Of a DNA stretch of 64,000 nt, positions 13,406 through 57,729 are shown one piece after another; position 1 is the first letter of the stretch; each line of letters starts with the position of its first letter. Position numbers and translations under genes: made by a program. The notes beneath the pieces are model-generated. The model did not search any database. It saw nothing but the letters and a program-made list of their open reading frames with translations, and was not told the DNA's origin. The DNA comes from Bradyrhizobium oligotrophicum S58 (lineage in GTDB: Bacteria > Pseudomonadota > Alphaproteobacteria > Rhizobiales > Xanthobacteraceae): positions 992,001 to 1,056,000 of the forward strand of contig NC_020453.1 in NCBI RefSeq assembly GCF_000344805.1, in the 5' to 3' direction.

Positions 13406-14070
13406 CTCTGAGCTCCTGAGGCTGCGGCAGGCCCGCTTGGATTGGAAAACAAGCCGCGGTCCGTCGCGAGCATGGATTGAACGGGCTCGCGAGATCATAC
13501 GCAGGCAACCGAACTCAAGTTGCGGTAGAAGCGATCGAACGCATGCGGCGCAGCTTCAGCCAGCTTCGAAGCCGCCTTGCGGCATGAGCCGCGATCCACG
13601 GTCTTGGCCGGCACTCAGATCCTTCTCCAGGCGACTGAGGGCGTGGACAAGAAATCAGGGCGGAAGCCGCACGCGGAGCGTCCCTGGGTCGCGCCTGAGG
13701 CATCATCTGGCTGCCGCTCGCGCTTGATCCTGCCGGTGGGTCTGCGAACTCACCCAATGACAGCGGGCGGGCGATCGCTATCCGAGGATTTTCGGAACTG
13801 CCCTTGAGCGCGGCATTCAGCATGCCACTGATCGGCCTCCTATGCTCAGCCGCACCGGTCACTGGTGAAAAGACGGCTCGTGGCCGATAGGGGCTGTCAC
13901 CAAGGCTGTGCCCGCCGCGGCAAAGACGAGTCGCTTCCTTGAGGCGAGGGGGGTGCCGAAACCGCGCCCCTCGATCTCCGGCATCCCCCCTCGCTGCCCT
14001 GCGCGTCGATCATGTCCGTCGACGCGCCGGACGACCCGTGAGGGCGCGAACCTGTCCCGGAGGATGCTCG
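13406..14070. other. Stretch without a supported gene between DUF2285 and HTH genes
   Basis: About 665 bases. Several frames are open but none has a recognisable domain. It may hold control sequences for the HTH-repA-traF operon, whose first gene has a good ribosome site at 14058-14063. Confidence 0.35.
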
Positions 14071-14373
14071 ATGCCCGATCAGATAGCCGGTCCCCCGCCG
14101 CGCTTTCTTCGTACACCCGAAGCTGCGCGCTATCTTGGTCTGTCCGGCCGCACCCTGGAAAAGCACCGCACCTACGGCACCGGCCCCTTATATCGCAAGA
14201 TCGGCGGCCGCGTCGTGTATGCGCTCGACGATCTGAAAGCCTGGGCCGATCGCGGCACCAAGACGTCGACGGCTGATCCCGGCCAGGGCACCGTTCTGCC
14301 GGCGAAGCGACATCCAGGTCTCATTCCCTATGCAGGGCAGGAGCGTCGTGCGTCGCGGGCTGGGCGGGCTTGA
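14071..14373 (+). CDS. Helix-turn-helix protein, RdfS-like excision factor candidate
   Basis: 100 aa with an N-terminal MerR/AlpA-type winged HTH: RFLRTPEAARYLGLSGRTLE, then HRTYGTGPLYRKIGGRVVYA and LDDLKAWAD. Proteins of this kind act as excisionases or recombination directionality factors. In ICEMlSymR7A the RDF RdfS heads an operon with traF and the relaxase gene. Here the HTH gene heads repA-DUF2840-traF with the relaxase beyond, which supports the parallel. The ATG at 14071 follows a strong ribosome site (CGGAGGATG). The stop overlaps the repA start. It could also regulate repA. Confidence 0.65.
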   Translation: MPDQIAGPPPRFLRTPEAARYLGLSGRTLEKHRTYGTGPLYRKIGGRVVYALDDLKAWADRGTKTSTADPGQGTVLPAKRHPGLIPYAGQERRASRAGRA

Positions 14374-18147: not shown

Positions 18148-18407
18148 AGGAGATACTCCACGGCAGCAGAGAACCCGAAATGGAACGACAACACACGAGG
18201 GGGAAGGTGTGCAGAGACCGGACGGTTACGGGGCGACGTTTTAGGGCAAGATAAAAGCGGCTCGCCGGTTGATCAGCAAGCCATTGACATGGCTCGCGTT
18301 CAACCGTGCCGGCCGGTCGGAGCGCGAGCCGCGCGCATTGTCTTCGTCAGCAGGATCAATGCTGTTTCCGGCACTTCAGCGTCAGCCTGTGCTGCGAGGC
18401 GCCGCAC

Positions 18408-20168
18408 ATGAGCAGCGGCGAGCGCGAATTCCGCATCCGCCCGGGCCGCATCCGTCATGGACGTGAGCGGAAGGCCAAGAGCTTCATCAATCGAGTCCTG
18501 CGCGCCGCGAACGCCGCAGGCCACGTCAGCCCGCTGACGGCGATCGATGGACGCCGGACGGTTCGCGCCCATTCGACCTTCGGCCGCGGCCGTCTCAGCT
18601 TCAGTCGCGAGCGCCTCTTTGTCCCGGTTCGCCGTGTCATGGTGAAGGCCCGCATCGCAAGGCACAAGGGCCGCGCGTTTCGGTCAGCGCCGCTGTCGAT
18701 GCATCTGACCTATCTCAAACGGGAGGGGGTCACCCGTGATGGCGATCCGGCAAGGATGTTCGACGCGCAAGGTGATCACTCCGACGAGGCTGCCTTCGAG
18801 GAGCGGAGCAGCAACGACCGGCATCATTTCCGGTTCATCGTCTCGCCGGAGGACGCGGCCGACATGGTGGACCTCAGAGCCTTCACCCGAGATCTGATGC
18901 GGCAGATGGAGGCCGATCTGTCGACGCGTCTTGAGTGGATCGCGGTTGATCATTGGAACACGGATCATCCGCACGTTCATGTGCTCGTCCGCGGCGTCGA
19001 TGAGACGGACGCAGATCTGGTGATTGCCCGCGACTATATCGGCAGGGGCCTGCGCTCCCGGGCCGAGGAGCTGGTCGCGCTCGAGCTCGGTCCGAAGCCG
19101 GAGCATGATATCCGCAACGCCCTCGAACGAGAGATCACGGCAGATCGCTGGACGCGGCTCGATCGCGAAATCCGCATGGCGTCCGATGAGCTGGGTGCCA
19201 TCGATCTCCGTCAGCACGTGGCAGGTCGTCCAGATCCCGAGGTTCTCCGCCTGATGCGAGGGCGCCTGCAATATCTGGAGCGTATGGGGCTGGCCGCGGC
19301 AGCCGGGCCCAACGAGTGGATGGTTGAGCTCGGTGCAGAGCGGCAGCTCCGCGAGCTCGGCACGCGCGATGACATCATCAGGACGATGCATCAGGCATTC
19401 GCCCGCGGCGGCGAGGAGCGGAGCGCCGCGGACTACGTCATCAATGGCGTCGATACCTCATCCCCCATCGTGGGCCGGTTGGTCGATCGTGGACTGCATG
19501 ACGAGCTGACCGGCGAAGCCTATGCGGTGGTCGACGGCATCGACGGCCGCGCCCATCACGTCCGCTTCCGCGGGATCGAGGCGTTTGCGCAGGCGCCTCA
19601 GCTTGGCGGCATCGTCGAGATCAGGCGCTTTGGCGCGCCGGACGAGGCGCGGCCGACCCTGGTCCTGGCGACGCGCTCGGATCTTGCCCTGGCTGATCAG
19701 ATCAAGGCCGAGGGTGCGACCTGGCTCGATCATCGGCTGGTCGAGCGCGAGCCCGTCTCTGTCGCCTCCAGTGGATTTGGCGCGGAGGTGAGGGGCGCGC
19801 TGCGCAGCCGGGCAGAGCAGCTCGTCGAACGGGGACTGGCGCAGAGACACGGCCAGCAGATCGTCCCGCAACGGGATCTTCTGAAGACGCTGCGCCGGCA
19901 GGAGCTCGAATCCGTAGGCGCGCGGCTGTCGGTGACCAACAGCTTGCCGCAGCTGCCGGTGGCTGCTGGCGAACAGATCTCGGGAATCTATCGCCAGCGA
20001 CTTGTCCTCGCCTCCGGCCGCTTCGCCCTGATCGACAATGGTCTCGGCTTCTACCTCGTGCCGTGGTCCCGCGACATCGATCACCGGCTCGGTCAGAAGG
20101 TCACAGGCCTTGCCAAGACCGGCGGCATCGAATGGCAGCTTGGCCGCAAGCGCAATCTCAGTCTTTAG
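18408..20168 (+). CDS. rlxS: VirD2/RlxS-like conjugative relaxase (DUF3363)
   Basis: 586 aa. The N-terminal relaxase domain has the metal-binding histidines in WNTDHPHVHVLVRGVDE (near residue 185) and FIVSPEDAADMVDLRAFTR just before it. The candidate nicking Tyr lies in the N-terminal MHLTYLKREGV block. The C-terminal half is a DUF3363 region (from about residue 270). The enzyme nicks oriT and pilots the strand into the recipient with TraG. The ATG at 18408 starts the conserved MSSGEREFRIRPGRI motif. It is the first gene downstream of the IS66 element, so it may have lost its native promoter or traF-coupled transcription. Confidence 0.85.
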   Translation: MSSGEREFRIRPGRIRHGRERKAKSFINRVLRAANAAGHVSPLTAIDGRRTVRAHSTFGRGRLSFSRERLFVPVRRVMVKARIARHKGRAFRSAPLSMHLTYLKREGVTRDGDPARMFDAQGDHSDEAAFEERSSNDRHHFRFIVSPEDAADMVDLRAFTRDLMRQMEADLSTRLEWIAVDHWNTDHPHVHVLVRGVDETDADLVIARDYIGRGLRSRAEELVALELGPKPEHDIRNALEREITADRWTRLDREIRMASDELGAIDLRQHVAGRPDPEVLRLMRGRLQYLERMGLAAAAGPNEWMVELGAERQLRELGTRDDIIRTMHQAFARGGEERSAADYVINGVDTSSPIVGRLVDRGLHDELTGEAYAVVDGIDGRAHHVRFRGIEAFAQAPQLGGIVEIRRFGAPDEARPTLVLATRSDLALADQIKAEGATWLDHRLVEREPVSVASSGFGAEVRGALRSRAEQLVERGLAQRHGQQIVPQRDLLKTLRRQELESVGARLSVTNSLPQLPVAAGEQISGIYRQRLVLASGRFALIDNGLGFYLVPWSRDIDHRLGQKVTGLAKTGGIEWQLGRKRNLSL

Positions 20169-20185
20169 CAGTCGGGAGACACCAC

Positions 20186-22180
20186 ATGCCTGCGACCCGA
20201 ATCCAATGGGCACAGTTGCTCACCGTCTTGCTGATCAACCTGCTTGCGATCTGGACGGCGACCGAGTGGACGGCCTGGCGGCTTGCCTTCCAACCGCGAT
20301 TGGGGGCGCCGTGGTTCATCCTGGCCAGCTGGCCTGTCTATTTCCCTCCGACCTTCTTCTGGTGGTGGTTCATCTACGATGCCTATGCGCCCTCCATCTT
20401 TACCGAAGGTGCGGCTATCGCGGTCAGTGGCAGTCTTGCGTCGATTGCGGTTGCGATCGGCATGTCGCTCTGGCGGTCACGGGAGGCGAAAGCCGCAGCC
20501 ACCTACGGGTCGGCGCGTTGGGCCGAACCGGGCGAGGTGCGCAAGGCGGGACTGCTCGGTGAAGACGGCGTGGTCCTGGGACGGTTGGGAGCGCGCTACC
20601 TGCGCCATGATGGACCGGAGCATGTGCTCTGTTTTGCACCGACGCGGTCTGGCAAGGGCGTTGGTCTCGTGGTGCCGTCTCTTCTGACGTGGCCGGGATC
20701 GGCGATCGTTCACGATATCAAGGGCGAGAATTGGCAGCTGACGGCAGGATTTCGCGCGCGGCACGGCCAGGTATTCCTGTTCGACCCGACCAATCCGAAT
20801 GCCTCAGCCTACAATCCACTTCTCGAGGTCAGGCGAGGGCCCTCCGAGGTGCGTGACGTGCAGAATGTTGCCGACGTGCTGGTGGATCCCGAGGGATCTC
20901 TCGACAAGCGCAATCATTGGGAAAAGACCAGCCATTCGCTTCTGGTCGGTGCCATCCTGCACGTTCTCTATGCCGAGCCCGACAAGACCTTGGCCGGTGT
21001 TGCCGCGTTCCTCTCCGACCCCCGGCGCACGATCGAGGCGACGTTGATGGCGATGATGGCGACGCATCATCTGGGCGCAGCCGGGCCGCACCCGGTGGTG
21101 GCATCGACAGCGCGCGAGCTTCTGAACAAATCGGAGAATGAGCGCTCGGGCGTCCTTTCAACGGCGATGTCATTCCTCGGTCTTTACCGGGATCCGGTGG
21201 TGGCTGCTGTCACGGGGAGATGTGATTGGCACATTTCTGATCTGGTTGCAGGGGAGGAGCCCGCGACGCTGTATCTCGTCGTGCCGCCATCCGACATCTC
21301 ACGCACCAAGCCGCTCATTCGTCTGGTTCTGAACCAGATCGGCCGGCGTTTGACCGAGGATCTCAAGGCAAAGCAGAGCCGTCATCGCGTCCTGATGATG
21401 CTGGACGAGTTTCCGGCATTGGGCCGGCTCGACTTCTTCGAATCCGCTCTCGCCTTCATGGCTGGGTACGGCATCAAGAGCTTCCTGATTGCGCAATCGC
21501 TCAATCAGATCGAGAAGGCCTATGGGCAGAACAATGCCATTCTGGACAACTGCCATGTCCGCGTCAGCTTCGCGACCAATGACGAGCGAACCGCCAAGCG
21601 CGTCTCGGACGCGCTCGGCACCGCAACCGAAATGCGGGCCGTGAAGAATTATGCCGGGCATCGCCTGGCGCCATGGTTGGGTCACCTGATGGTGTCGCGC
21701 CAGGAGACGCCGCGTCCGCTCCTGACGCCGGGCGAGGTGATGCAGTTGCCGGCGGCCGATGAGATCGTGATGGTCGCCGGCGCTCCACCGATCCGCGCCA
21801 GGAAGGTGCGCTATTTCGAGGACCACAGACTGGTCTTGCGTATCCTGCCGCCGCCGGACGTCGCCAGGACCAGAGTGTCTGCGGGTGCGGATGACTGGTC
21901 ATCGCTTGCGCCCCTCACGCCCGTGCTCGACGGATCAAAGCGGACAGTGCCCACCGAGACAAGGGACGAGGACGCCAATGGCGGCTTGCGGCGCGAGCCG
22001 GAGCTGTCGCAGCACGAAGCGATCGCGATCGAAGCAAAAAGCCCAGATCCGGCGGACGAGTTTTCTGTCGTGTTCGATGACGATGATGGGATGACGCAGC
22101 AGGGCCGCTCGCGCGATGTGAGCACGACGCGAATTGCGCGTCAGGCCGCGCTCGACCCGCGTGATGACATGGGCTTGTGA
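20186..22180 (+). CDS. traG: Type IV coupling protein TraG/VirD4
   Basis: 664 aa. Two N-terminal membrane helices (LLTVLLINLLAIWTATEW; a second near residues 80-95) precede the hexameric ATPase. Walker A PTRSGKGVGLV is near residue 152 and Walker B VLMMLDEFPALG near 404, with the family block FLIAQSLNQIEKAYG after it. It links the relaxase-DNA complex to the Trb channel. It lies 17 bases after rlxS and ends 10 bases before the copG-like gene, consistent with one operon. Confidence 0.92.
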   Translation: MPATRIQWAQLLTVLLINLLAIWTATEWTAWRLAFQPRLGAPWFILASWPVYFPPTFFWWWFIYDAYAPSIFTEGAAIAVSGSLASIAVAIGMSLWRSREAKAAATYGSARWAEPGEVRKAGLLGEDGVVLGRLGARYLRHDGPEHVLCFAPTRSGKGVGLVVPSLLTWPGSAIVHDIKGENWQLTAGFRARHGQVFLFDPTNPNASAYNPLLEVRRGPSEVRDVQNVADVLVDPEGSLDKRNHWEKTSHSLLVGAILHVLYAEPDKTLAGVAAFLSDPRRTIEATLMAMMATHHLGAAGPHPVVASTARELLNKSENERSGVLSTAMSFLGLYRDPVVAAVTGRCDWHISDLVAGEEPATLYLVVPPSDISRTKPLIRLVLNQIGRRLTEDLKAKQSRHRVLMMLDEFPALGRLDFFESALAFMAGYGIKSFLIAQSLNQIEKAYGQNNAILDNCHVRVSFATNDERTAKRVSDALGTATEMRAVKNYAGHRLAPWLGHLMVSRQETPRPLLTPGEVMQLPAADEIVMVAGAPPIRARKVRYFEDHRLVLRILPPPDVARTRVSAGADDWSSLAPLTPVLDGSKRTVPTETRDEDANGGLRREPELSQHEAIAIEAKSPDPADEFSVVFDDDDGMTQQGRSRDVSTTRIARQAALDPRDDMGL

Positions 22181-24725: not shown

Positions 24726-25007
24726 GCCCACGCTGCAGCGCGGGTCCTCATCATGAGCCGCGATATAACAACGACCTCCTTTCCGTGGCTGTGAGATGAG
24801 CGCCTTCAGCGGCCTTTGATCGGAGCGGAGAAAGCTGCGTGCTCATCCATCGGTTCGCTCGTGTCCCCAGCCGATGCAATCGTGTGGCGTCTACGCTTTC
24901 CTTCGCCGCGCTACGCGCGAGACGCTGTTGGTCTTGCCCCTGCAACAGGTCTGCATCTTTGATCACCCCAGGCGACGCAGATGATCGCGCAATGATCGGA
25001 GGTGAGA
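24726..25007. other. Intergenic stretch before trbB
   Basis: About 280 bases with no gene. A Shine-Dalgarno sequence GGAGG at 24998-25002 fixes the trbB start at the GTG 25008. A promoter for the trb operon is likely here because the MFS insertion separates trbB from traG. Confidence 0.4.
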
Positions 25008-25973
25008 GTGACCGGCTTCATCCAGACACAGCGCATCGCTCGTAGCGCCCGCATGCTGCGGACGGCATTGGGGCCTGCCATCGCGCGTCATCTCGACGAT
25101 CAATCCGTCGTGGAGATCATGCTCAATCCGGATGGCCGGCTCTGGATCGATCGGCTCGCGTCTGGCTTGGCCGATACCGGTGAGAGCCTCGCTGCCGGTG
25201 ATGGCGAGCGCGTCGTCCGGCTGGTCGCGCACCACGTCGGACTCGAGGTCCATGCCGGCTCTCCGCGCGTGTCGGCGGAGCTGCCGACGACGGGCGAACG
25301 TTTTGAAGGCCTGCTGCCGCCGCTCGTTGCAGCTCCGACATTCGCCATCCGCAAGCCCGCGATCGCCGTCTTCGCGCTCGACGACTACGTGGCTTGCGGG
25401 ATTGCGACCGCAGACCAGGCCGGCGCGTTGCGGCGGGCGGTTGCCAACCGCTGCAACATTCTGGTGGCCGGCGGCACCTCGACCGGCAAGACCACGCTGG
25501 TCAATGCCTTGTTGGCTGAGGTGGCGATGACCGGCGATCGCATCGTGCTGATCGAGGATACGCTCGAGCTGCAATGCTCGGCGCCTAACCTCGTGACGCT
25601 TCGAACCAAGCAGGGTGTGGCGTCGCTTTCGGATCTGGTGCGCGCCGCGCTTCGGCTGCGCCCGGATCGCATTCCGATCGGCGAGGTCCGCGGGCCCGAG
25701 GCGCTCGATCTCGTCAAGGCCTGGGGCACCGGCCATCCCGGCGGCATCGGCACCATTCATGCCGGGTCCGCGCTCGGCACCCTCCGGCGGCTGGAGCAGC
25801 TGATTCAGGAGGCCGTCGTGACCGTCCCACGTGCTCTGATTGCCGAGACGATCAACGTGATTGCCGTTCTCGCCGGGCGCGGCTCGCAGCGGCGGCTCGG
25901 CGAGCTCGTGCGTGTCGAGGGGCTCTCACCTTGCGGAGACTACATCCTCGTTCCTTTGGGAGATCAGCGATGA
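25008..25973 (+). CDS. trbB: Conjugal transfer ATPase TrbB
   Basis: 321 aa, VirB11 type. Walker [13 protein letters not shown] is near residue 155, followed by the Asp box [12 protein letters not shown] and the Walker B-region [15 protein letters not shown], with the His box [16 protein letters not shown]. This cytoplasmic hexamer powers pilus assembly and DNA transfer. The GTG at 25008 is preferred over 25002 because of the SD spacing. It overlaps trbC by four bases. Confidence 0.93.
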
Positions 25974-26296
25974 GGGCGCGACTGTCCTGCTGGTCCATCG
26001 CCACGATGGCGATTGCTGCTGCCGCAGTGCTCGTGGCGGTGGCGCCGGTGCATGCGGCGGGCTCGAACATGCCTTGGGAGCAGCCGCTCAACAAGATCCT
26101 GCTTTCGGTCGAGGGACCGGTCGCCAAGATCATCGCCGTGATCATCATCATCACGACAGGTCTGTCGCTGGGTTTTGGCGAAACCTCCGGTGGCTTCCGG
26201 CGGCTCATCCAGATCGTCTTCGGTCTCTCCATCGCCTTTGCCGCCTCGAGCTTCTTCCTGTCGTTCTTCTCCTTCGGCGGCGGCGTGGTGTTCTGA
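25970..26296 (+). CDS. trbC: Conjugal pilin precursor TrbC
   Basis: 108 aa. The N-terminal export signal (SIATMAIAAAAVLVAVAPVHA) is followed by the mature prepilin with two hydrophobic helices (IIAVIIIITTGLSLGFG; IVFGLSIAFAASSFFLSFF). This is the substrate of TraF, which cyclises it in related systems. ATG overlaps the trbB stop; its own stop overlaps trbD. Confidence 0.9.
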   Translation: MRARLSCWSIATMAIAAAAVLVAVAPVHAAGSNMPWEQPLNKILLSVEGPVAKIIAVIIIITTGLSLGFGETSGGFRRLIQIVFGLSIAFAASSFFLSFFSFGGGVVF

Positions 26297-26559
26297 TGGA
26301 TGATGAGATCAAGGGCTTCAGCGCGCCAGTGCATCGCTCGTTGACCGAGCCCATTCTGCTCGGGGGCGCGCCGCGATCGGTCGCGATTGTCAACGGCACC
26401 GTGTCGGCGGCGCTGGGCCTCGGTTTGCGGCTCTGGTTCTTCGGCCTGCTGCTCTGGTTCGTCTGCCACATGGTCGCGGTCTGGGCGACACGGCGCGATC
26501 CATCCTTTGTCGAGGTCGTGCGCCGCCACCTGCGGATTCCCAATCATCTCAGCCAGTGA
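26296..26559 (+). CDS. trbD: Conjugal transfer protein TrbD
   Basis: 87 aa, VirB3-like inner-membrane protein. GFSAPVHRSLTEPILLGGAP is followed by two membrane segments around TVSAALGLGLRLWFFGLLLW and a cationic tail. Position between trbC and trbE and the one-base overlap at 26296 are canonical. Confidence 0.88.
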   Translation: MDDEIKGFSAPVHRSLTEPILLGGAPRSVAIVNGTVSAALGLGLRLWFFGLLLWFVCHMVAVWATRRDPSFVEVVRRHLRIPNHLSQ

Positions 26560-26566
26560 GGCTCTC

Positions 26567-29008
26567 ATGTTCAATTTGGCCGAATACCGCCGCACCAACA
26601 TCCGGCTTGCGGACTTCCTGCCCTGGGCGGCGCTGGTGGACGAGGGCGTCGTCCTCAACAAGGACGGCTCGCTGCAGCGCACGGCGCGTTTTCGCGGGCC
26701 CGACCTGGAGAGCTCGGTCGCATCCGAACTTGTCGTCGTCGCTTCCCGTCTCAACAATGCTTTGCGGCGCTTAGGCTCGGGCTGGGCGATCTTCGTCGAG
26801 GCGCAGCGGCATTCGGCCGGAGCCTACCCAACTTGCGTGTTTCCGGATGCCGCGTCCGCCCTGGTCGATGCCGAGAGAAAGGCCCAGTTCGAGGAGCAGG
26901 CGGCGCACTACGAGTCGAGCTACTATCTGACGTTTCTGTACCTGCCGCCGCGAGAAGACGTCGCCCGTTCCGAACGCGTGCTCTATGAAGGCGCGCCGCA
27001 GCCGGAGGGCTCGCGCGGCCGCGACATCCTGCGCAGCTTCGTCGATCGCACCGACCGCATCCTGCAGCTCGTGGGCGGCTTCATGCCGGAATGCGGCTGG
27101 CTCGGCGACGACGCCGTGCTGAGCTATCTGCACTCGACCGTCTCCACCAAGCGCCAGCGGGTCCGTATCCCTGAAGTTCCCATGCATCTGGATGGGCTGC
27201 TCGCCGACCAGCCGCTGACCTGCGGCCTCGCGCCGATGCTGGGGGCGGTCAATCTCCGCGTGCTCACCATCATCGGCTTTCCCTCTGCAACCACGCCAGG
27301 ACTGCTGGACGAATTGAACGGGCTTGCCTTCGCCTACCGCTGGTCGACCCGCGCCATCATGCTCGACAAGCAGGATGCCGTGAAGCTCGTGACACGAATC
27401 CGCCGGCAGTGGTTCGCCAAGCGCAAATCTCTGGCGGCGATCCTCAAGGAGGTCGTGACCAACGAGGCGGCAAGCCTCGTTGACAGCGACGCCCACAACA
27501 AGACCGCTGACGCCGATGCGGCGCTGCAGGATCTCGGCTCCGATGAGATCGGCCAGGCCTATGTCACCGCGACCGTGACGGTGTGGGATCCTGATCCGGC
27601 GAGAGCTGACGAGAAGCTGCGCCTGGTGGAGAAGGTGATCCAAGGGCGCGATTTCACCTGCATGACCGAGACTGTGAATGCGGTCGAGGCCTGGCTCGGC
27701 AGCCTTCCGGGGCACGTCTATGCCAATGTGCGCCAGCCGCCGCTGTCGACGCTGAACCTTGCGCATCTCGTTCCGCTCTCGGCGGTCTGGGCAGGTGAGG
27801 TGCGTGACCATCATTTGAGGGCGCCTGCGCTGCTGTTCGGCCGCACCGAGGGCGCGACGCCATTCCGGTTCTCGCTTCATGTCGGCGATGTCGGTCACAC
27901 GCTGGTGGTCGGACCGACTGGTGCCGGCAAATCGGTGCTGCTGGCGCTGATGGCTCTTCAGTTCCGCCGCTATCCCAATGCGCAGATCCTTGCGTTCGAT
28001 TTCGGCGGCTCCCTGCGGGCCGCCGCGCTCGCCATGGCAGGTGACTGGCATGATCTCGGTGGGACGCTGCCGGCCGATAGCGAGACCTCGATCGCGCTGC
28101 AGCCGCTGGCAGGCGTCGATGATGTGATGGAGCGCGCCTGGGCGGCGGAGTGGATCGCCGGCCTGCTGGCCCGCGAGAAGATCGTGGTGACGCCGGAAGC
28201 CAAGGAGCATCTGTGGTCGGCGCTGACCTCGCTGGCTTCCGCGCCACCTTCTGAGCGGACCCTGACCGGCCTGTCGGTGTTGTTGCAGTCGAACAGCCTG
28301 AAGCGGGCCCTCAAGCCGTATTGCCTCGATGGTGCTCACGGACGACTGCTGGATGCCGATCATGAGCTCGTGGGCGACCGGCCGGTCCAGGTGTTTGAGA
28401 CCGAGGGGCTGATCGGAGCCGCCGCAGCTCCTGCTGTCCTGGCGTATCTGTTCCACAGGATCGCGCGGCAGCTCGACGGCCGCCCGACACTTCTGATCAT
28501 CGATGAAGGGTGGCTGGCGCTGGACGACGCAGAGTTCGCGGGCCAGCTCAGGGAGTGGCTGAAGACCCTGCGCAAGAAGAACGCCTCCGTCGTTTTCGCG
28601 ACCCAGTCGCTGTCCGACATCGACGGCTCACCGATCGCGCCCGCCATCATTGAGAGCTGCCCAACCCGAATCCTGCTGCCCAATGAGCGCGCGCTCGAGC
28701 CGCAGATCAGGGGGATCTATCGTCGCTTCGGCCTCAATGATCGTCAGCTTGAGCTCGTCAGCCGCGCGGTGCCCAAGCGCGACTATTACTGCCAGTCGCG
28801 GCGGGGCAACCGCATGTTCGAGCTCGGTCTTGGCGAGGTCGCGCTCGCCTTTGCCGCGGTGTCGTCCAAGGCCGATCAGGCCGCGATCTCGGAAGTTCTC
28901 AAATCCGCCGGCAGGCCCGGCTTTGCGGCGGCGTGGTTGCGGCACCTCAAGCTTGGCTGGGCAGCCGACCTCATCCCGCGCCTCGAAAATCTGGAGACGC
29001 CGCGATGA
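26567..29008 (+). CDS. trbE: Conjugal transfer ATPase TrbE (VirB4)
   Basis: 813 aa, full length. It starts FNLAEYRRTNIRLADFLPW. Walker A VGPTGAGKSVLLALM is near residue 449; Walker B PTLLIIDEGWLALDD and the motif VVFATQSLSDIDGSPIAPAI follow. TrbE is the largest ATPase of the mating channel, needed for substrate transfer and pilus biogenesis. Its start follows a GTGAGG site; its end overlaps trbJ. Confidence 0.95.
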   Translation: MFNLAEYRRTNIRLADFLPWAALVDEGVVLNKDGSLQRTARFRGPDLESSVASELVVVASRLNNALRRLGSGWAIFVEAQRHSAGAYPTCVFPDAASALVDAERKAQFEEQAAHYESSYYLTFLYLPPREDVARSERVLYEGAPQPEGSRGRDILRSFVDRTDRILQLVGGFMPECGWLGDDAVLSYLHSTVSTKRQRVRIPEVPMHLDGLLADQPLTCGLAPMLGAVNLRVLTIIGFPSATTPGLLDELNGLAFAYRWSTRAIMLDKQDAVKLVTRIRRQWFAKRKSLAAILKEVVTNEAASLVDSDAHNKTADADAALQDLGSDEIGQAYVTATVTVWDPDPARADEKLRLVEKVIQGRDFTCMTETVNAVEAWLGSLPGHVYANVRQPPLSTLNLAHLVPLSAVWAGEVRDHHLRAPALLFGRTEGATPFRFSLHVGDVGHTLVVGPTGAGKSVLLALMALQFRRYPNAQILAFDFGGSLRAAALAMAGDWHDLGGTLPADSETSIALQPLAGVDDVMERAWAAEWIAGLLAREKIVVTPEAKEHLWSALTSLASAPPSERTLTGLSVLLQSNSLKRALKPYCLDGAHGRLLDADHELVGDRPVQVFETEGLIGAAAAPAVLAYLFHRIARQLDGRPTLLIIDEGWLALDDAEFAGQLREWLKTLRKKNASVVFATQSLSDIDGSPIAPAIIESCPTRILLPNERALEPQIRGIYRRFGLNDRQLELVSRAVPKRDYYCQSRRGNRMFELGLGEVALAFAAVSSKADQAAISEVLKSAGRPGFAAAWLRHLKLGWAADLIPRLENLETPR

Positions 29009-29733
29009 TCTCTGGCAAGCGATGGGCAGCGTCGTTGGCGCTGCTGGTTCTGAGCTCGGCGGGACCGGTGCGGGCCCAGCTCGTCGTCTTCGACCCCAAC
29101 AACTATGCTCAGAACGTGCTGACCGCGGCGCGTGAGCTGCAGCAGATCAACAATCAGATCCTGGCCCTGCAGAACCAGGCCCAGATGCTGATCAATCAGT
29201 CACGCAACCTCGTCAATCTGCCGTATTCGTCGCTCTTGCAGCTGCAGCAATCGATCCAGCGGACCCAGGATCTGCTCAAGCAGGCTCAGCGCCTGGCCTA
29301 CGACGTGCAGCAGATCGAGCAGGCGTTCAAGACGATCTACGCGCCGGCAGCCGCCGGCACCAGCGCGGCCGACCTCGCAGACAATGCGCGCTCACGCTGG
29401 CAGACGTCGGTGGCCGCGCTGCAGGATGCGCTCAAGCTTCAGGCAGGCGTGGTCGGCAATCTCGACGCGATCAAGAGCCAGTCCGCAGCGCTGGTTGCCG
29501 CGAGCCAAGGTGCCGCCGGCGCCTTGGCTGTTACGCAAGCGGGCAACCAGATCCTGGCGATGCAGGCGCAACAGCTCGCGGATCTGACGGCGGTCGTGGC
29601 CGCCCAGGGACGGGCGCAGAGCCTCACCATGGCCGAGCGCGCGGCGGCAAAGGACCAGGCACGCGAACAGCTCCGCCGCTTCCTGACACAGGGGCAGGGC
29701 GACCAGTCCTCCAACGTACGAATGTTTCACTGA
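29005..29733 (+). CDS. trbJ: Conjugal transfer protein TrbJ
   Basis: 242 aa, VirB5-like periplasmic protein. A cleavable signal (RWAASLALLVLSSAGPVRA-Q) precedes long Gln-rich helices (ELQQINNQILALQNQAQMLI; LLQLQQSIQRTQDLLKQAQR), forming a coiled coil as in VirB5 pilus-tip adhesins. The ATG at 29005 overlaps the trbE stop. Confidence 0.92.
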   Translation: MISGKRWAASLALLVLSSAGPVRAQLVVFDPNNYAQNVLTAARELQQINNQILALQNQAQMLINQSRNLVNLPYSSLLQLQQSIQRTQDLLKQAQRLAYDVQQIEQAFKTIYAPAAAGTSAADLADNARSRWQTSVAALQDALKLQAGVVGNLDAIKSQSAALVAASQGAAGALAVTQAGNQILAMQAQQLADLTAVVAAQGRAQSLTMAERAAAKDQAREQLRRFLTQGQGDQSSNVRMFH

Positions 29734-29813
29734 TGATGACGAGCGTTGTGGACCAAACCGGCGGATCCTTCGCTGCGGCTGCGCGGCAGCTCATCGTTGA
29801 GATGGCCCGATGA
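29733..29813 (+). CDS. Tiny open frame in the TrbK (entry-exclusion) position
   Basis: 26 codons (MMTSVVDQTGGSFAAAARQL and six more), overlapping the trbJ stop on its left and the trbL start on its right, both in ATGA fashion. Canonical TrbK is a 60-90 aa lipoprotein or membrane protein. This one has no lipobox and no membrane segment. It is probably a degenerated trbK kept open by the translational coupling. Confidence 0.4.
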   Translation: MMTSVVDQTGGSFAAAARQLIVEMAR

Positions 29814-31021
29814 CAGGAACGGGGATCATCGATCAGTTCCTGGAGACCTTTACCCGGACCATCGACAGCGGCTTCGGTCTCTTGGGCGGTGAGGTCGGAT
29901 ATCTCGCAACCACGCTCGTCGCCATAGATGTCACGCTGGCTGCGCTGTTCTGGGCGTTCGGCGGCGAGGACGATGTCATCGCCCGGCTCGTGAGGAAGAC
30001 CTTGTTTGTCGGCGTGTTCGCCTATCTGATCGGCAATTGGAACAGCCTCGCCCGCGTCGTCTTCGAGAGCTTCGCAGCACTTGGCCTCAAGGCCGCCGGC
30101 TCGGCGCTGTCGGCGGCGGACTTCCTGCGCCCGGGCAGGATCGCGCAAGTCGGTCTCGATACCGGGCGGCCGCTGCTTCAGGCGATCTCGGGTCTCCTCG
30201 GCTATGTGAGCTTCTTCGAAAACTTTCTGCAGATTGCGGTCCTGTTGTTTGCGTGGCTGGTCGTGCTGCTCGCCTTCTTCATTCTGGCTATCCAGCTCTT
30301 CGTCACCCTGATCGAGTTCAAGCTCACGACGCTTGCCGGATTTGTTCTCATTCCGTTTGGTCTGTTCGGCAAGACCGCGTTCGCAGCCGAACGTGTGCTC
30401 GGCAATGTCATCTCCTCCGGTGTGAAGGTTCTGCTGCTTGCCCTGATCTCAGGGACCGGCTCGACCCTGTTCGGTCAGTTGACCCTGGTGACGGGCAGCG
30501 ATCCTCCAACGGTGGAGAGTGCCATGGCCCTGGTCCTGGCGTCCCTGTCGCTGCTCAGCCTTGGATTGTTCGGGCCCGGGATCGCCAATGGTCTTGTCGG
30601 TGGCGGACCGCAGCTCGGAGCAGGGAGCGCGGTCGGGGCGTCGCTTGCAGCGGGAGGTCTCGTCGTAGCCGGCGCCGGCATGGCCGCTGGTGCAGCGGGG
30701 CTCGCAGGCGGCGCGATCTCTGGTGCAAGCCGTGCTGTCGCGCCGCTTGGTGCGGCGGCGTCCGGCGGAGGGCGCGTCAGCGGCGTTGCCGCCGAGGCGG
30801 CAGGAGCGAACGCGAGTCCTCTGCGCCAGATGGCGAATGTCGAGGCCGGCGGCTCGCATCAGCCGGGTCAGGCCGACGGCTCGGGCTCGCCGATGTGGGC
30901 GCAGCGCATGAAGGCAGTGCGCGCCGTGCATCAGGGCGCATCTACCACGGCGCAGGCCGTTCGCCATGCCGAGCACGGCGGTCAGGGAAGCGCGGTCGAT
31001 CTCTCCGAGGGGAAATCCTGA
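29810..31021 (+). CDS. trbL: Conjugal transfer protein TrbL
   Basis: 403 aa, VirB6-like polytopic inner-membrane protein. At least five membrane helices lie in residues 25-250 (for example LLFAWLVVLLAFFILAIQLF), followed by a Gly/Ala-rich segment (about 260-330) and a polar cytoplasmic tail. It forms part of the translocation channel. Its start is coupled to the preceding micro-frame; trbF follows after a single base. Confidence 0.92.
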   Translation: MTGTGIIDQFLETFTRTIDSGFGLLGGEVGYLATTLVAIDVTLAALFWAFGGEDDVIARLVRKTLFVGVFAYLIGNWNSLARVVFESFAALGLKAAGSALSAADFLRPGRIAQVGLDTGRPLLQAISGLLGYVSFFENFLQIAVLLFAWLVVLLAFFILAIQLFVTLIEFKLTTLAGFVLIPFGLFGKTAFAAERVLGNVISSGVKVLLLALISGTGSTLFGQLTLVTGSDPPTVESAMALVLASLSLLSLGLFGPGIANGLVGGGPQLGAGSAVGASLAAGGLVVAGAGMAAGAAGLAGGAISGASRAVAPLGAAASGGGRVSGVAAEAAGANASPLRQMANVEAGGSHQPGQADGSGSPMWAQRMKAVRAVHQGASTTAQAVRHAEHGGQGSAVDLSEGKS

Positions 31022-31022
31022 C

Positions 31023-31706
31023 ATGTTCAAGCGATCATTCGTTCATTACGGCCATACGCCCGAGCCGGTGACGCCCTATCAGAAGGCAGCCCAGATCTGG
31101 GACGAGCGCATCGGCTCTGCGCGCGTGCAGGCCAAGAACTGGCGGCTGATGGCGTTCGGCTGCCTCAGCCTCGCCGCAGGCTTCGCGTCCGCCCTGATCT
31201 GGCAGTCGACCCGCGGCACGGTGACGCCCTGGGTGGTCGAGATTGGCCATCTCGGCGAGGTCCAGCGAGTGGCGCCCGCGGTGGCTGACTACATGCCGAC
31301 CGATCCGCAGGTCGCCTTCCATCTCGCCCGCTTCATCGAGGATGTGAGAGGTCTGCCGGCCGACGGCATCGTGCTGCGCCAGAACTGGCTGCGCGCCTAC
31401 GAGTTCACGACCGATCGCGGCGCGGCTGCCCTGAATGATTATGCCCGCTCCAATGACCCCTTTACCAAGCTCGGGAGGATCCAGGTCTCGATCGAGGTCT
31501 CCAGTGTGATCCGCGCCTCGCCGGACAGCTTCCGGATCGCCTGGGTCGAGCGTCGCTACGAGAACGGCGCGTCGGTTGCGACCGAGCGCTGGAGCGCGAT
31601 ACTCACCATCGTGCTTGCCATGCCAGACGATGCTGACCGCCTGCGCAAGAACCCGCTCGGCGTCTACGTCCAAGCCATCAATTGGTCGAAGGAGCTGTCG
31701 CAATGA
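31023..31706 (+). CDS. trbF: Conjugal transfer protein TrbF
   Basis: 227 aa, VirB8-like. An N-terminal FKRSFVHYGHTPEPVTPYQK motif and membrane anchor (LMAFGCLSLAAGFASALIW) precede a periplasmic NTF2-like domain (RIAWVERRYENGASVATERW). It is a scaffold of the inner-membrane complex. It overlaps trbG by four bases. Confidence 0.92.
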   Translation: MFKRSFVHYGHTPEPVTPYQKAAQIWDERIGSARVQAKNWRLMAFGCLSLAAGFASALIWQSTRGTVTPWVVEIGHLGEVQRVAPAVADYMPTDPQVAFHLARFIEDVRGLPADGIVLRQNWLRAYEFTTDRGAAALNDYARSNDPFTKLGRIQVSIEVSSVIRASPDSFRIAWVERRYENGASVATERWSAILTIVLAMPDDADRLRKNPLGVYVQAINWSKELSQ

Positions 31707-32671
31707 GCAAGTCAATGGTCCGGATATCTGGAGGGACAATGATGACGGGGGCCGCCGTTCTGGTTCTGCTCTGCAGCTGCACGACGACCAGTCCGCCGAA
31801 GATCAGCTATGATAGCGAAGCGCCATCATTGCCGGCACCGCCTGCCGTCCTTGATGGGAAGGCTCAGCCGCTTCGTCTTCCGCCGCCCTGGAAAGTGTCC
31901 CTTGGCGGCAAGGCGGGAGCCCAGGAAGAAGCGGAGCCGCTCGACCGCGTCGAGACGGCCAATAGCGCGGCGCGGGTCGAACCGCGCAAGAAGGGCTACT
32001 TCAACGCGACGCAGATCTATGCCTATAGTCCCGGCGCGCTCTATCAGGTCTATGCGGCGCCCGGGCAGATCACCGACATCATGCTCGAGGAAGGTGAACA
32101 GCTGGCAGCGTCGGGGCCCGTGTCGGCCGGCGACACCGTGCGCTGGGTCATCGGCGATACCGAGAGCGGGGCGGGCGAACGCCGCCGCGTCCACATCCTG
32201 GTCAAGCCCACGCGTGCCGCGATCGAAACCAATCTCGTCGTGAACACCGACCGGCGGACCTATCTGCTCGAGCTTCGCGCTCGCGACAAGCCGTATATGC
32301 CCGCCGTGGCCTGGTACTATCCGCAGAATGCCGAGACGAGAGCGCGCCAGCTCGTCTTGAGGCCGGAGCTGCCCAATCCGGCGCTGCGGCGCTTCCGCTA
32401 TCGCATCGAGGGTGATGATCCGCCATGGAGGCCGGTCTATGCCTATGACGATGGCCGCAAGGTCTATATCGAGTTCGCCCCCGGCATTGTGCAGGGTGAA
32501 TTGCCGCCCTTGTTCATTATCGGGAGCGATGGTGCACCCGAGATCGTCAATTACCGTGCCTTCCGCAACACAATGATCGTCGATCGGCTGTTTGCCGCAG
32601 CCGAGTTGCGCCTTGGTGGCGATCAGCAGCGCACGGTCAGGATCGTCAGAACCGACGGAGCCTCGCTGTGA
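31703..32671 (+). CDS. trbG: Conjugal transfer protein TrbG
   Basis: 322 aa, VirB9-like outer-membrane-complex protein. Lipoprotein-type signal (TGAAVLVLLCSC, lipid site near Cys30). The N-terminal domain has FNATQIYAYSPGALYQVYAA, and the C-terminal VirB9 fold runs from about residue 215 (PVYAYDDGRKVYIEF). Coupled to trbF and trbI by overlapping start and stop codons. Confidence 0.92.
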   Translation: MSKSMVRISGGTMMTGAAVLVLLCSCTTTSPPKISYDSEAPSLPAPPAVLDGKAQPLRLPPPWKVSLGGKAGAQEEAEPLDRVETANSAARVEPRKKGYFNATQIYAYSPGALYQVYAAPGQITDIMLEEGEQLAASGPVSAGDTVRWVIGDTESGAGERRRVHILVKPTRAAIETNLVVNTDRRTYLLELRARDKPYMPAVAWYYPQNAETRARQLVLRPELPNPALRRFRYRIEGDDPPWRPVYAYDDGRKVYIEFAPGIVQGELPPLFIIGSDGAPEIVNYRAFRNTMIVDRLFAAAELRLGGDQQRTVRIVRTDGASL

Positions 32672-33885
32672 CAAGCGAGGAGGTCGAACCCTCACTGTCG
32701 CAGGCGGCATTTGCAGCCGACAAGGCCGAACGACGCACCAGGATCTTGCGCCTGAACGGAGATCTTCCACCGGTTACACGGCTGTCGCGCAATGTCCTGG
32801 CCGGCGGCAGTGCCGTGGCGCTGCTGGTGATGGGAGGCGCCGTCGTCTGGACATTGCAGAGCAACAAGCCCGGCAAATCGGCCGCGGCCGAGCTCTACAG
32901 CACTGATCATCACGACCTCGCCGATGGGCTTTCGGCCCTGCCGCGTGACTACGCCAATCTTCCCAAGAATCTCCCGGCAGACGTCCCAGCGATCGGACCG
33001 CCGCTGCCCGGGGATCTCGGCAAGGCGATTGTCGCCGCGCAAGGCCAGGCACTTGCGGCAACGCCCGATCAGGAGCAGCTCCGCCATGAGCAGGAGCGGG
33101 ACGCCGCTCGCTCGAGCCGCCTTTTTGCGACGGTCAATGTTCGTGGCACCGAGGCAGCGGCGAGTGCGGCTCAGACCAGCGACCGCCCGGGCGCGATGTC
33201 CAGTCCCGATGACGCGTTCGCCCAGAATGGCCAGGACCGCAAGCTCGCCTTCGTCAATGCTTCGGTCGATCGCCGGACCACGAGTCCCGACCGTGTCAGC
33301 CAGCCGGCGTCCCCCTATGTGGTTCAGGCCGGGACCGTCATTGCGGGAGCCCTGATCACGGGCATTCGCTCCGACCTGCCGGGGCAGATCACCGCACAAG
33401 TTACGGAGAACGTGTTCGATTCCCCGTCAGGCCGTTTCCTGCTTGTGCCGCAGGGGGCACGGTTGATCGGCACATACGATAGCCAGGTGACGGCGGGGCA
33501 ATCGCGCGTGCTCCTGGTCTGGACCAGGCTGATCATGCCCAATGGCCGTTCGATCGTTCTGGAACGGCAGCCGGGCGCCGACGCTGCCGGCTATTCGGGT
33601 CTGTCAGACGAGGTCGACAACCATTTCAGGCAACTGGTTGGCGCAGCTTTGCTCTCGACGCTGCTCTCGATGGGGAGCGAGGTCAACGCGGGCACGAACC
33701 AGAATACGAACAACGCCGCGATCATCCAGGCGCTCCGCCAGGGCTTCGGCAACGCCATGAGCCGCACAGGTCAGCAGCTCGTCGGCCAACAGATGAACAT
33801 CCAGCCGACTCTGACAGTGAGGCCGGGCTTTCCGGTCCGCGTGATCGTCAATCGCGATCTCGTGCTCGAGCCGTATCAGGGGTAG
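32668..33885 (+). CDS. trbI: Conjugal transfer protein TrbI
   Basis: 405 aa, VirB10-like. A cytoplasmic N-terminus, one membrane helix (NVLAGGSAVALLVMGGAVVW), a Pro/Ala-rich periplasmic linker and the C-terminal beta-barrel domain (VVQAGTVIAGALITGIRSDL, then FLLVPQGARLIGTYDS, ending RPGFPVRVIVNRDLVLEPYQ). It spans both membranes. GTG start overlapping the trbG stop (GTGA). Confidence 0.93.
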   Translation: MTSEEVEPSLSQAAFAADKAERRTRILRLNGDLPPVTRLSRNVLAGGSAVALLVMGGAVVWTLQSNKPGKSAAAELYSTDHHDLADGLSALPRDYANLPKNLPADVPAIGPPLPGDLGKAIVAAQGQALAATPDQEQLRHEQERDAARSSRLFATVNVRGTEAAASAAQTSDRPGAMSSPDDAFAQNGQDRKLAFVNASVDRRTTSPDRVSQPASPYVVQAGTVIAGALITGIRSDLPGQITAQVTENVFDSPSGRFLLVPQGARLIGTYDSQVTAGQSRVLLVWTRLIMPNGRSIVLERQPGADAAGYSGLSDEVDNHFRQLVGAALLSTLLSMGSEVNAGTNQNTNNAAIIQALRQGFGNAMSRTGQQLVGQQMNIQPTLTVRPGFPVRVIVNRDLVLEPYQG

Positions 33886-34352: not shown

Positions 34353-34808
34353 TCATGCAGCGCCTTCGGTGCCTGTATGCCGGCGAACCGATTTCAGGAT
34401 CGCTGATGCGAGACCGAATTCCTGACAGGCCTGGATGAGCTGCCCGATCACTCGGCGCCGTCCGCCGGCGCTCAGTGCGCGATCGCAGCCGAAGCGCGAT
34501 GCTTCCCAGACTGCATCCGAATGCGGCAGCAAGCCTTCAACCAGGTCAGGCCACAAGGACTTGACCATGTAGGGGCGTGTGGTCGGAATCAGCCGTGCAG
34601 TTCCCGGGGCCCGATCGTGCTCGTCGACGACCAGAATGTAGGTAGCTGCCGGCGTGTCGAACTCATCATATTCCAGGCCCTGATAATGAGGCACGGACCA
34701 CCCCTGGCGCTCGACGAACATCCGGTACCGCAACCGATGATGCGAGATCCACGCCTCGCCATATCGATGGACGGTTTCCCACCTGATTGAAAGGGTACGC
34801 ATGAGCAT
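34353..34808 (-). pseudogene. Truncated LuxI-type acyl-homoserine-lactone synthase
   Basis: 151 aa against the usual ~200-220. The N-terminal catalytic core is well kept: HHRLRYRMFVERQGWSV, GLEYDEFDTPAATYILVVDE, GTARLIPTTRPYMVKSLWPD and VWEASRFGCDRAL carry the invariant Arg, Phe, Trp, Asp, Asp, Arg and Glu-x-x-Arg residues. After QACQEFGLA the sequence leaves the family and stops. No matching C-terminus was found in the other two frames downstream. The missing part forms the acyl-chain pocket, so activity is doubtful. It is divergent from luxR, as in TraI/TraR-type systems. Confidence 0.8.
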
Positions 34809-35504
34809 CTTCCAATGTGCCGCGTGAAGGAAGGTGCAGACTAATCGGCGCAGCGTCAGCGAGGGAGCTACCCAGTCGAGTAGCTCGCGGGCCTGTCGAG
34901 CGGCCGCCGTCTCATTGGCTGCTCAGAGGACGGCAGCAGTCAGGCCTCGCCCCAATATCACCTATAATTAGACGCAATTCTGAGTTGTGTTGTGGTGGGG
35001 TTCTTGGCTTTTGCAAGGCTGTTGTGGCAGGTGCGAACGGGTTCAGCGTGGGAGAGCCATGAGGCCTGACTTGCGGGTGCGGCGTGCCGGGATGAATGCC
35101 TCTCGCGCCCATGATCCGCTCGAAAGCTTATACCAGCAAGATAGTGCATGCTGACAGAAGTGCCGAAGAGAGCCTATCCAGCAGGCACTTTGCTGCGCGA
35201 TGTCGTCGACCGAGTTGGCAAGATCGTCTCGGCTGCCGACTCCGGAGGCGGGCAATGGTGATGCCATCGAGGCTTCCGAATGATTAAGCGAATGTGATCG
35301 TCAATTGCACGACGTGGCGTATCATGGTACAGTCTACCTGAGGTTGGGTTGAAGTTTTGACAGGCAAGTGCCCGCTTCTCGCCTTAGTCGAGGCGCACGA
35401 GGGGGCAAGAACGAACCGTTGGCGGTCGGGGCGCTGAGACGGATTCGCTTTCACGATCACATCTGGGCGGAAGTCTGCGCAGCTTTGTCTGCCGTGAGGT
35501 GGCA
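34809..35504. other. Long divergent intergenic region between luxI remnant and luxR
   Basis: About 695 bases with no gene recognised. It must carry the luxR promoter. A clear 18-20 base lux/tra-box palindrome could not be identified by eye. Confidence 0.4.
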
Positions 35505-36296
35505 ATGGACCTCTTCAGCTTCATAGATTGTGCAAACCGCACGCAGTCGTTGTCCGACCTCTTCGATCTTCTCGTCGGTTCTGCAGCCGATGAGGGTTTC
35601 GGTCAGGTAGCCTATGGCGCGTTGAACTACGAAGAGACGGTACGGCTGCCAGATCATCCGATGCCGGCCATCGCTCTCAACTTTCCGCTCGATTGGCGGA
35701 AGCACTATTTCGAGCGCAAGTATCACGAGATCGATCCGGTCGTCAGGAGAACGGCGTTTCACAGCAGGCCATTCCTGTGGGATCAGCTGCTCGAGCGGCG
35801 GCAGCTGCAGGACGGCGAGCGATTGGTCCTTCATGAGGGCCGCGAAGCCGGTCTCAAGCACGGGGTGAGCGTGCCGCTGTTTGGCCCGTCGGGACGTATC
35901 TCCGTTCTATCCTTTGCATCCCGCTTCGAGGATGCGGACCCGGTCCGGCATCTCAAGCATCTTCACGCTATGGCGTGTCAGTTCCATGTCGCTTTTGGCG
36001 AGCTTGCCCGGCCAGCGGCGGGCAAGAAGGCGATCGAGCTTTCGCAGCGCGAACGCGAATGTCTGAAGTGGACCGCGGAGGGCAAATCCTCCTGGGACAT
36101 CGGAATAATCCTCAAGATCAGTGAAAACACGATCAACTTCCACATCAAGAAGGCGATGAGAAAGCTTGGCACGAACAGCCGGACGGTCGCGGTCGTGAGG
36201 GCGATAAGGCTTGGTCTGATCGAGATTCCTGGACTAGCCGGCCGATCCATGTCGGCGTGGATCGACACACCACCGACTGAAACCGACGCCACCTAA
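35505..36296 (+). CDS. LuxR-family quorum-sensing regulator
   Basis: 263 aa. The N-terminal autoinducer-binding domain (about residues 15-165) has the expected aromatic and acidic pattern: FPLDWRKHYFERKYHEIDPV, the usual 'W...Y....DPV' signature, and HGVSVPLFGPSGR. The C-terminal GerE HTH reads ELSQRERECLKWTAEGKSSW, then DIGIILKISENTINFHIKKA. Intact, unlike the adjacent luxI. The ATG at 35505 follows GAGGTGG; a GTG at 35499 is possible. Probable role: activation of ICE excision and transfer genes in response to an AHL. With luxI truncated it may act as a solo receptor. Confidence 0.88.
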   Translation: MDLFSFIDCANRTQSLSDLFDLLVGSAADEGFGQVAYGALNYEETVRLPDHPMPAIALNFPLDWRKHYFERKYHEIDPVVRRTAFHSRPFLWDQLLERRQLQDGERLVLHEGREAGLKHGVSVPLFGPSGRISVLSFASRFEDADPVRHLKHLHAMACQFHVAFGELARPAAGKKAIELSQRERECLKWTAEGKSSWDIGIILKISENTINFHIKKAMRKLGTNSRTVAVVRAIRLGLIEIPGLAGRSMSAWIDTPPTETDAT

Positions 36297-53009: not shown

Positions 53010-53028
53010 AAGTCCTGGTGAGCAGGTC

Positions 53029-54831: not shown

Positions 54832-54849
54832 AGCCATGGCCGCCATGCG

Positions 54850-56194: not shown

Positions 56195-56389
56195 ATGAGT
56201 GAGTTCAACTGGCGGTCGTCCGAGTCTTACAAGAAGCTAGAGACAGCCGATGCGGCCGACTTTGCCTGGGAATGTCTACGTCGCAATCCAGACTATCGGC
56301 GAGACTACAGCGATCTGCTTGCGCAAGACAAAGACGGCCCGACCGATCCTGAATTTAGGCGGCGATGGGGGCTTTCTTTTCGCGGCTGA
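56195..56389 (+). CDS. Msi172-like protein (transcriptional-regulator-like domain), first half of split FseA
   Basis: 64 aa of the small domain formerly called DUF6499: FNWRSSESYKKLETADAADF, then AWECLRRNPDYRRDY and DPEFRRRWGLSFRG before a TGA at 56387. In ICEMlSymR7A, Msi172 and the downstream Msi171 are joined by a +1 programmed ribosomal frameshift to make FseA, the activator of excision (established). The next reading frame here is exactly +1 and continues the conserved RWGLxFxADP motif, so the same mechanism is likely. Preceded by a modest GGGACGAGTG site. Confidence 0.75.
   Translation: MSEFNWRSSESYKKLETADAADFAWECLRRNPDYRRDYSDLLAQDKDGPTDPEFRRRWGLSFRG
56366..56389 (+). promoter_or_regulatory. 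Candidate +1 ribosomal frameshift window
   Basis: The pyrimidine-rich run GGGGGCTTTCTTTTCGC (56367-56383) lies just before the zero-frame TGA. Slipping one base forward anywhere in this run turns RRWGLSF-RG-stop into RRWGLSF-AADPMRRFDAQ, which restores the domain junction expected for a fused FseA. No ribosome site precedes the first ATG of the second frame (56394). Confidence 0.6.
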
Positions 56390-56393
56390 CCCA

Positions 56394-56969
56394 ATGCGGC
56401 GGTTTGATGCTCAGGCCATATTCTGGGCACCGGAAGTGCTGCCGACTGTGCTTCGGGTTGTTCCGACCTCGCAAGGCTCGCTTGCGCCATTCTCTCATCT
56501 CGACCTTCGCGGATCGCCCGACGCCGAGCTGAGACGGGCGTCCGATGGCTGGTACGCGGTGCTGCAGCTGGGCGGCGCCACGCACCGGCTGATGCTCTCC
56601 CGGCTTCCGGCGAAGAGGATGGCCGTGGCCGTCGAACTGCCGCTCGACCGAGATTTCGATTTGCAGACCCGCGCGGCCTATCGGCTTTGGACGGCGCTGA
56701 GACGAGGTCTGATCACGCTTTCGGCTCACCCCGGGCCTGTTCAGCAGCGCCGGCGCCTCGTTCTGGCGCTGCGCGCCTTGGATGGCCGTGTCGAGGGCCA
56801 GAACTATCGGGCGATCGCCACGGTTCTGTTCGGGTCCGAGCGAGTTGAAGATCGGGGATGGAAAACGCACGACCTGCGCAGCCGGACCATCCGGCTGGTT
56901 CAAACAGGTCAGACGCTGATCCGAGGCGGCTATCGAAATCTGCTGCGTAGCCAACGGCGATCAGCATGA
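56394..56969 (+). CDS. Msi171-like DUF2285 protein, second half of split FseA
   Basis: 191 aa if translated alone; the frame is open from upstream and joins the previous gene at +1. The N-terminal FWAPEVLPTVLRVVPTSQG beta region is followed by LMLSRLPAKRMAVAVELPLD, and the C-terminal DUF2285 helices read RRRLVLALRALDGRVEGQNY, then RAIATVLFGSERVEDRGWKT, RSRTIRLVQTGQTLIRGGYR. The small DUF2285 gene at 13127 shows the same fold in isolation, as QseM does relative to FseA. Expected role: activation of the RdfS-like operon and excision. Confidence 0.75.
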   Translation: MRRFDAQAIFWAPEVLPTVLRVVPTSQGSLAPFSHLDLRGSPDAELRRASDGWYAVLQLGGATHRLMLSRLPAKRMAVAVELPLDRDFDLQTRAAYRLWTALRRGLITLSAHPGPVQQRRRLVLALRALDGRVEGQNYRAIATVLFGSERVEDRGWKTHDLRSRTIRLVQTGQTLIRGGYRNLLRSQRRSA

Positions 56970-57086
56970 TCGGCCCGCCGGCCCGCCTCGCAGCCGCCGC
57001 GGAAGCCGACCATCGGCGCAAGGACCGGCTGAGCACGCCGGGCGCTAAAACTCAGTCATCCGGCTTGGCTGATGTCCTTGAGCGCA

Positions 57087-57608: not shown

Positions 57609-57729
57609 CAATCTAAGCTTGAAACAATCAACCAGAATTATGTCATTCGCGCTACAACTCCAGAGGATAGATAAAATGCGATCGTCGCCAGCCACGGTTT
57701 GATGTCCGCGACGTAGCAAAGGACAAGGA

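Follow-up and report, generated by a model that had tools for sequence, protein, structure and literature searches.

A gene split between two overlapping frames

The window considered here is a 64,000-nucleotide (nt) stretch of the plant-symbiotic Bradyrhizobium oligotrophicum S58, corresponding to positions 992001-1056000 of its single-contig, 8.26 Mb genome. At 56195-56969 of this window lie two overlapping open reading frames (ORFs) that very probably constitute one fseA gene of an element of the integrative and conjugative (ICE) type, the two parts being joined by a +1 ribosomal frameshift. The features of the gene are listed below; Bradyrhizobium aeschynomenes 83002 (hereafter 83002) is the nearest named relative at the locus, and dN/dS is the ratio of nonsynonymous to synonymous substitution rates.

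56195..56389, plus strand: ORF1 (msi172-like), with DUF6499/PF20109; 64 amino acids (aa), ending in WGLSFRG-stop
56366..56371, plus strand: ribosome-binding-site-like TGGGGG, encoding Trp-Gly, 6 nt 5′ of the slip codon; its Gly codon is often GGG in relatives
56378..56381, plus strand: putative +1 slip site TTT_C, where the P-site Phe tRNA would move from UUU to UUC
56382..56969, plus strand: +1-frame part (msi171-like), with a middle domain and DUF2285/PF10074; dN/dS 0.246
56387..56389, plus strand: 0-frame stop TGA, two sense codons past the slip codon; CGA in 83002

ORF1 matches PF20109 with an E-value of 6.7e-24 and contains the segment AWECLRRN, which corresponds to the AWEFLRRN-like motif expected of the N-terminal DUF6499 in the FseA family, while the second half supplies the C-terminal DUF2285 of that family (PF10074, E 3.2e-28). 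These two scores exclude chance as the origin of the frames. In a profile search of the whole genome, PF20109 matches once and PF10074 twice. The codons at the 3′ end of ORF1 read TGG GGG CTT TCT TTT CGC GGC TGA, in which TTT occupies 56378-56380 and the pyrimidine run CTTTCTTTTC spans 56372-56381. The second frame is +1 relative to ORF1 and open across the slip site; apart from the slip, both frames are open to their ends. The initial annotation had described the end of ORF1, its continuation in a +1 frame, the DUF2285 domain of the second half and a pyrimidine-rich run before the stop, and all of these are borne out.

Conservation of the split among relatives

PF20109 has matches in 108 of 146 genomes sampled from the genus, 61 of 297 from the order and 43 of 398 from the phylum, with overlap among the three samples. 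A set of 182 loci, including that of the window, was assembled from those recovered by profile and sequence searches together with 100 hand-chosen regions from listed places. The DUF2285 part lies in the +1 frame in 159 of these, in the same frame in 14 and in the -1 frame in two, with no DUF2285 match in six and no DUF6499 match in one; the set is biased to the genus of the window and to strong matches, and the counts ignore kinship and hence the dependence between related loci. Three of the 159 (L084, L181 and L186) have weak DUF6499 matches that end short of the W-G-x-x-F motif, making the +1 call doubtful, and were left out; the 156 secure loci were reduced to 113 representatives. A stop just past the slip site is present in three of the same-frame loci (L028, L121 and L143), which, like the two -1 loci (L072 and L134), show extra indels or stops; all five look decayed. 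The other 11 same-frame loci are divergent members with weak scores and one long open frame. Single-frame relatives from metagenomes (P0005, P0006 and P0008-P0017) were not taken to prove natural fusion, since some gene callers repair frames.

The locus in 83002, at 88% over the DUF2285 half, is split as well. A lone sequencing error, which the initial annotation had considered, is ruled out by the recurrence of the split there and in most loci. A comparison of the window with 83002 gives dN/dS values of 0.119 for ORF1 before the slip, 0.246 for the +1 frame downstream of it and 1.13 to 2.37 for the four other readings.

The probable slip site and the downstream stop codon

The interval previously proposed for the slip, 56367-56386, proves correct and can be narrowed to TTT_C at 56378-56381. 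The slip codon is TTT in 155 of the 159 loci, as TTTC in 136, TTTT in 18 and TTTA in one, and both TTTC and TTTT allow the Phe tRNA to re-pair one base forward. Among the representatives, TTT occurs at this position in 111 of 113, as compared with 244 of 845 Phe codons elsewhere in those genes, and the following base is a pyrimidine in 112 (C in 104, T in eight). The Gly codon after the conserved Trp is likewise biased, being GGG in 60 of 113 representatives versus 242 of 1788 Gly codons elsewhere, with the site itself excluded. A UGGGGG beside the slip site has been likened to a ribosome-binding site (PMC10359603). The alternative CTT_T (56372-56375) was rejected as a general slip site, as CTTT is found there in only five of 113 representatives; for the window alone, to which that rejection does not extend, a slip at CTT_T would give GLLF rather than GLSF.

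The 0-frame stop follows after two sense codons past the slip codon in 94 of the 159 loci and lies further off in 65, a division that recurs among the representatives (60 versus 53). In 83002, a change of GCT to GCC, silent in the +1 frame, yields CGA where the window has TGA. Because the stop is further off in many loci and replaced by CGA in 83002, a nearby UGA is, to judge from these sequences, not required for the split arrangement. Asp stands at the third +1 codon of 92 representatives; in 58 of them the codon before it has a final T, versus 28.6 expected from synonymous usage with kinship ignored, an excess that hints at selection for the stop. Conceivably, though we consider it rather unlikely, the slip at UUU_Y is independent of the stop, and the UGA two codons on was added or kept by selection in the Bradyrhizobium lineage as a separate brake. 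If so, this UGA would set the termination point of non-shifting ribosomes and could appear or disappear through a base substitution that leaves FseA unchanged (GCT GAC in the window versus GCC GAC in 83002).

The predicted joined protein and its putative target

When the two parts are modeled as a single protein, the prediction matches RovC (PDB 6xz5) structurally across both halves, as would be expected of a RovC-like fold. A first model was set aside as too poor (predicted local distance difference test, pLDDT, 54.4); RovC was still its top-ranked match, at E 4.6e-3.

A candidate target for such an activator lies upstream of an rdfS-like gene.

13955..13982, plus strand: FseA-box-like site GCCGAA-N16-TCCGGC, 116 bp 5′ of the rdfS ATG; one mismatch
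14071..14373, plus strand: rdfS-like excisionase/helix-turn-helix protein (PF12728; PHROG 66, excisionase and transcriptional regulator)

The rdfS-like protein is 86-88% identical to its nine best other matches. The published FseA box consists of a pair of inverted hexamers upstream of rdfS, separated by 16 bp (15-16 bp spacer; PMC10359603), and the putative site in the window fits this geometry, the likeness being one of geometry rather than of the published hexamer letters. Upstream of 30 Bradyrhizobium rdfS genes (L228-L257, with the window included), GCCGAA-N16-TTCGGC is exact in 17, and the same box with at most two mismatches lies at -115 to -117 in 28. By a pattern test, 24 of these 30 loci have the fseA slip region some 720 bp upstream of rdfS; in the window the two are 42 kb apart.

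The surrounding mobile element

The following features accompany the split gene and the rdfS-like gene.

11915..12508, minus strand: C-terminal integrase fragment, whose N-terminus is unlike that integrase; no Pfam match
13127..13405, plus strand: lone DUF2285 protein, candidate QseM-like antiactivator (PF10074, E 8.4e-8)
18306..20168, plus strand: relaxase (rlxS-like, DUF3363)
20063..22180, plus strand: coupling protein TraG/VirD4
25002..33885, plus strand: trb mating-pair region, with ATPase, TrbE-, TrbL-, VirB8/TrbF-, CagX/TrbG- and TrbI-type matches
34353..34808, minus strand: traI-like N-acyl-homoserine lactone (AHL) synthase, without an internal stretch found in 83002
35499..36296, plus strand: LuxR/TraR-type regulator (PF03472 and PF00196)

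Because it carries relaxase, TraG, trb-type, LuxR/TraR-type, rdfS-like and lone DUF2285 genes, the window contains what is, by gene content, an ICE-type element. Within the trb region, the protein at 28933-29730 matches DUF4141 alone, under its cut-off, and the best NCBIfam match of the LuxR/TraR-type regulator is SdiA, followed by others including TraR, all under cut-off. In 83002 the traI gene is longer and collinear (L042, 5409-6308), and the integrase has 500 aa (L197, 9967-11469). Queried with the latter integrase, the genome of the window yields the fragment at 95% identity and otherwise just matches of 39% and 32%. A transposase-like gene (HTH_Tnp_1) is present at 17251-18147 on the minus strand, between traF and the relaxase gene.

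Upstream of fseA, a 51-codon ORF (56043-56198, plus strand) has a stop that overlaps the fseA start (ATGA), as if the two were translationally coupled; the matching frame in 83002 is open from a GTG and ends in a TAA that overlaps the ATG (TAATG). No relation of this ORF to traI was found, and a search for a traI remnant at 53001-56400 gave no significant match (best E 1.1). There is a 16-of-20 palindrome at 55716-55735. Also beside fseA are an XRE-type repressor-like gene (57087-57719, minus strand) and a protein-coding frame (57730-58509, plus strand) for whose product no match reaches the cut-off in Pfam, NCBIfam or PHROG; 83002 contains the DNA of both as well.

Proposed mechanism and alternatives

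The FseA-type +1 recoding that the initial annotation had proposed is supported by membership of the family, the frame relation across genomes, the extreme codon bias at a single position, purifying selection specific to the reading frame, a RovC-like match spanning the junction and the box-like site upstream of rdfS. We infer the slip itself and its efficiency, as well as DNA binding and rdfS activation, in the following scheme. Ribosomes would translate ORF1 until UUU occupies the P site and CGC the A site, whereupon a fraction would slip one base forward, the Phe tRNA re-pairing with UUC, and continue in the +1 frame as GCG GCU GAC. The predicted product is a 257-aa DUF6499-DUF2285 activator (...WGLSF-AADP...), while unshifted ribosomes would terminate at the UGA two codons later to give a 64-aa DUF6499 protein. 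FseA may in turn recognize the box-like site 116 bp upstream of rdfS and activate the operon for excision and transfer.

Several observations weigh against this interpretation. Two of the 113 representatives (L078 and L163) have TGT in place of TTT; they fall outside the TTT rule, and as each also has AGG instead of GGG after the Trp, which suggests decay, they are probably decayed or differently decoded. No stimulatory RNA structure was detected after the site, where two segments gave z-scores of -0.41 and -0.52 relative to shuffles; one segment before it folds no better than shuffles (z 0.38), and 55000-58000 contains no Rfam match. The AlphaFold model of the joined protein is of moderate quality (pLDDT 71.5; predicted template modeling score 0.56), residues 59-64 and 68-83 at the junction scoring below 50. 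Three other sites in the window match the box with at most one mismatch, as compared with 0.7 expected in all from 10 simulated sequences. One of these, at 10848-10875, is a perfect GCCGAA-N16-TTCGGC that falls within the frame 9540-10952 with no rdfS nearby, and is presumably due to chance; since such sites do occur in the window, it is position that makes the box at 13955-13982 credible. The role in excision is uncertain in this copy because the integrase is a fragment and traI is without its internal stretch, and excision by the element's own integrase is doubtful. Of the R7A-type quorum-sensing parts, a TraR-like gene and this shortened TraI-like gene are present, but the 204 nt upstream of fseA (55991-56194) and the intergenic region between traI and traR share no tra-box, no common 18-mer with fewer than five mismatches having been found.

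An improbable alternative is that the locus encodes two separate proteins acting as a pair, the second from its own start at ATG 56250 or after the slip. The former ATG lies in the +1 frame inside ORF1 and opens a 239-aa ORF, and a +1-frame start codon is present somewhere upstream of the slip in 52 of 113 representatives; for the Azorhizobium homologues rihF1b/rihF1a, moreover, frameshifting has been denied and separate start and stop codons are described (PMC9601964). The +1-frame codons within ORF1 are nonetheless unconstrained (dN/dS 2.37), and 48 of 113 representatives have no +1-frame start before the conserved FW motif, or within 16 codons where the motif is missing. A second in-frame ATG, at 56394 just past the slip and preceded by TTCTTTTCGCGGCTGACCCA, is ACG in 83002, and 112 of the 113 representatives retain Pro at the fourth position past the slip. 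Separate translation also leaves the conservation of TTT unexplained. The earlier statement that the second half has no ribosome site therefore holds for a start after the slip, but not in the sense that a start codon is missing, since both ATGs are in frame.

Still less probable is decay, in which a frameshift mutation broke a formerly single-frame gene. Other genes of the element are damaged, some relatives look decayed, such as the five loci noted above, and one close relative (G056, locus L198) has the domains joined in a single frame, with the Trp lost. Against this, a split at the same place is the rule (156 to 159 of 182 loci), purifying selection acts on both halves, and neither frame is interrupted other than at the slip. 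Transcriptional slippage producing an mRNA one base shorter is hardly credible: the site does have a pyrimidine run with four T, but 83 of 113 representatives have a T run of just 3 and none has more than 5, and runs of 3 to 5 are too short for usual polymerase slippage.

Relation to known systems and significance

The closest described counterpart is the FseA of ICEMlSymR7A, encoded by msi172-msi171, whose frameshift has been reviewed (PMC5009743) and which acts before RdfS and excision (PMC11963761). Both systems have two overlapping frames in a +1 relation, DUF6499 followed by DUF2285, and a WG-coding UGGGG before the site, and both reside in Trb-type elements with traR-, traI-, QseM- and RdfS-like genes. 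A traI2-msi172-msi171 operon, a tra-box and decayed traI2 genes have been described (PMC5882170). Unlike in ICEMlSymR7A, the fseA of the window is far from rdfS, its traI is without the internal stretch and its integrase is a fragment. In addition, a figure legend depicts R7A Msi172 as running on past the shift (PMC10359603), whereas a UGA closely follows the slip in the window, R7A being compared here by that description and not by site sequence.

According to the same 2023 paper, about 61% of 4709 FseA homologues are split by a conserved +1 site; they have the same domain pair and +1 split, and no difference of kind from the window was found. RovC, which the structural model matches across both halves, is an activator of a type VI secretion system and not of element excision (PMC10359603). 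Release factor 2 (RF2, prfB) offers a more distant parallel. Its +1 frameshift also involves a ribosome-site-like sequence upstream and a nearby UGA; the window differs in its slip codon (UUU), in the 6 nt to the G-rich stretch, and in its stop, which does not directly follow the slip codon and in many relatives lies far downstream.

The split gene is, on sequence evidence, a well-supported further example of the described FseA frameshift system and not a new system. No report on the slip site of this element was found in the literature searched, which is not proof of absence. The analysis adds a slip position narrowed to four bases from many sequences, the dispensability of the nearby UGA that those sequences suggest, and a setting with damaged integrase and AHL-synthase genes. 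It also contributes a new member to a family whose genes are split or overlooked by annotation pipelines, and the natural pair of elements with and without a nearby UGA would make it possible to measure how the stop influences +1 frameshifting.
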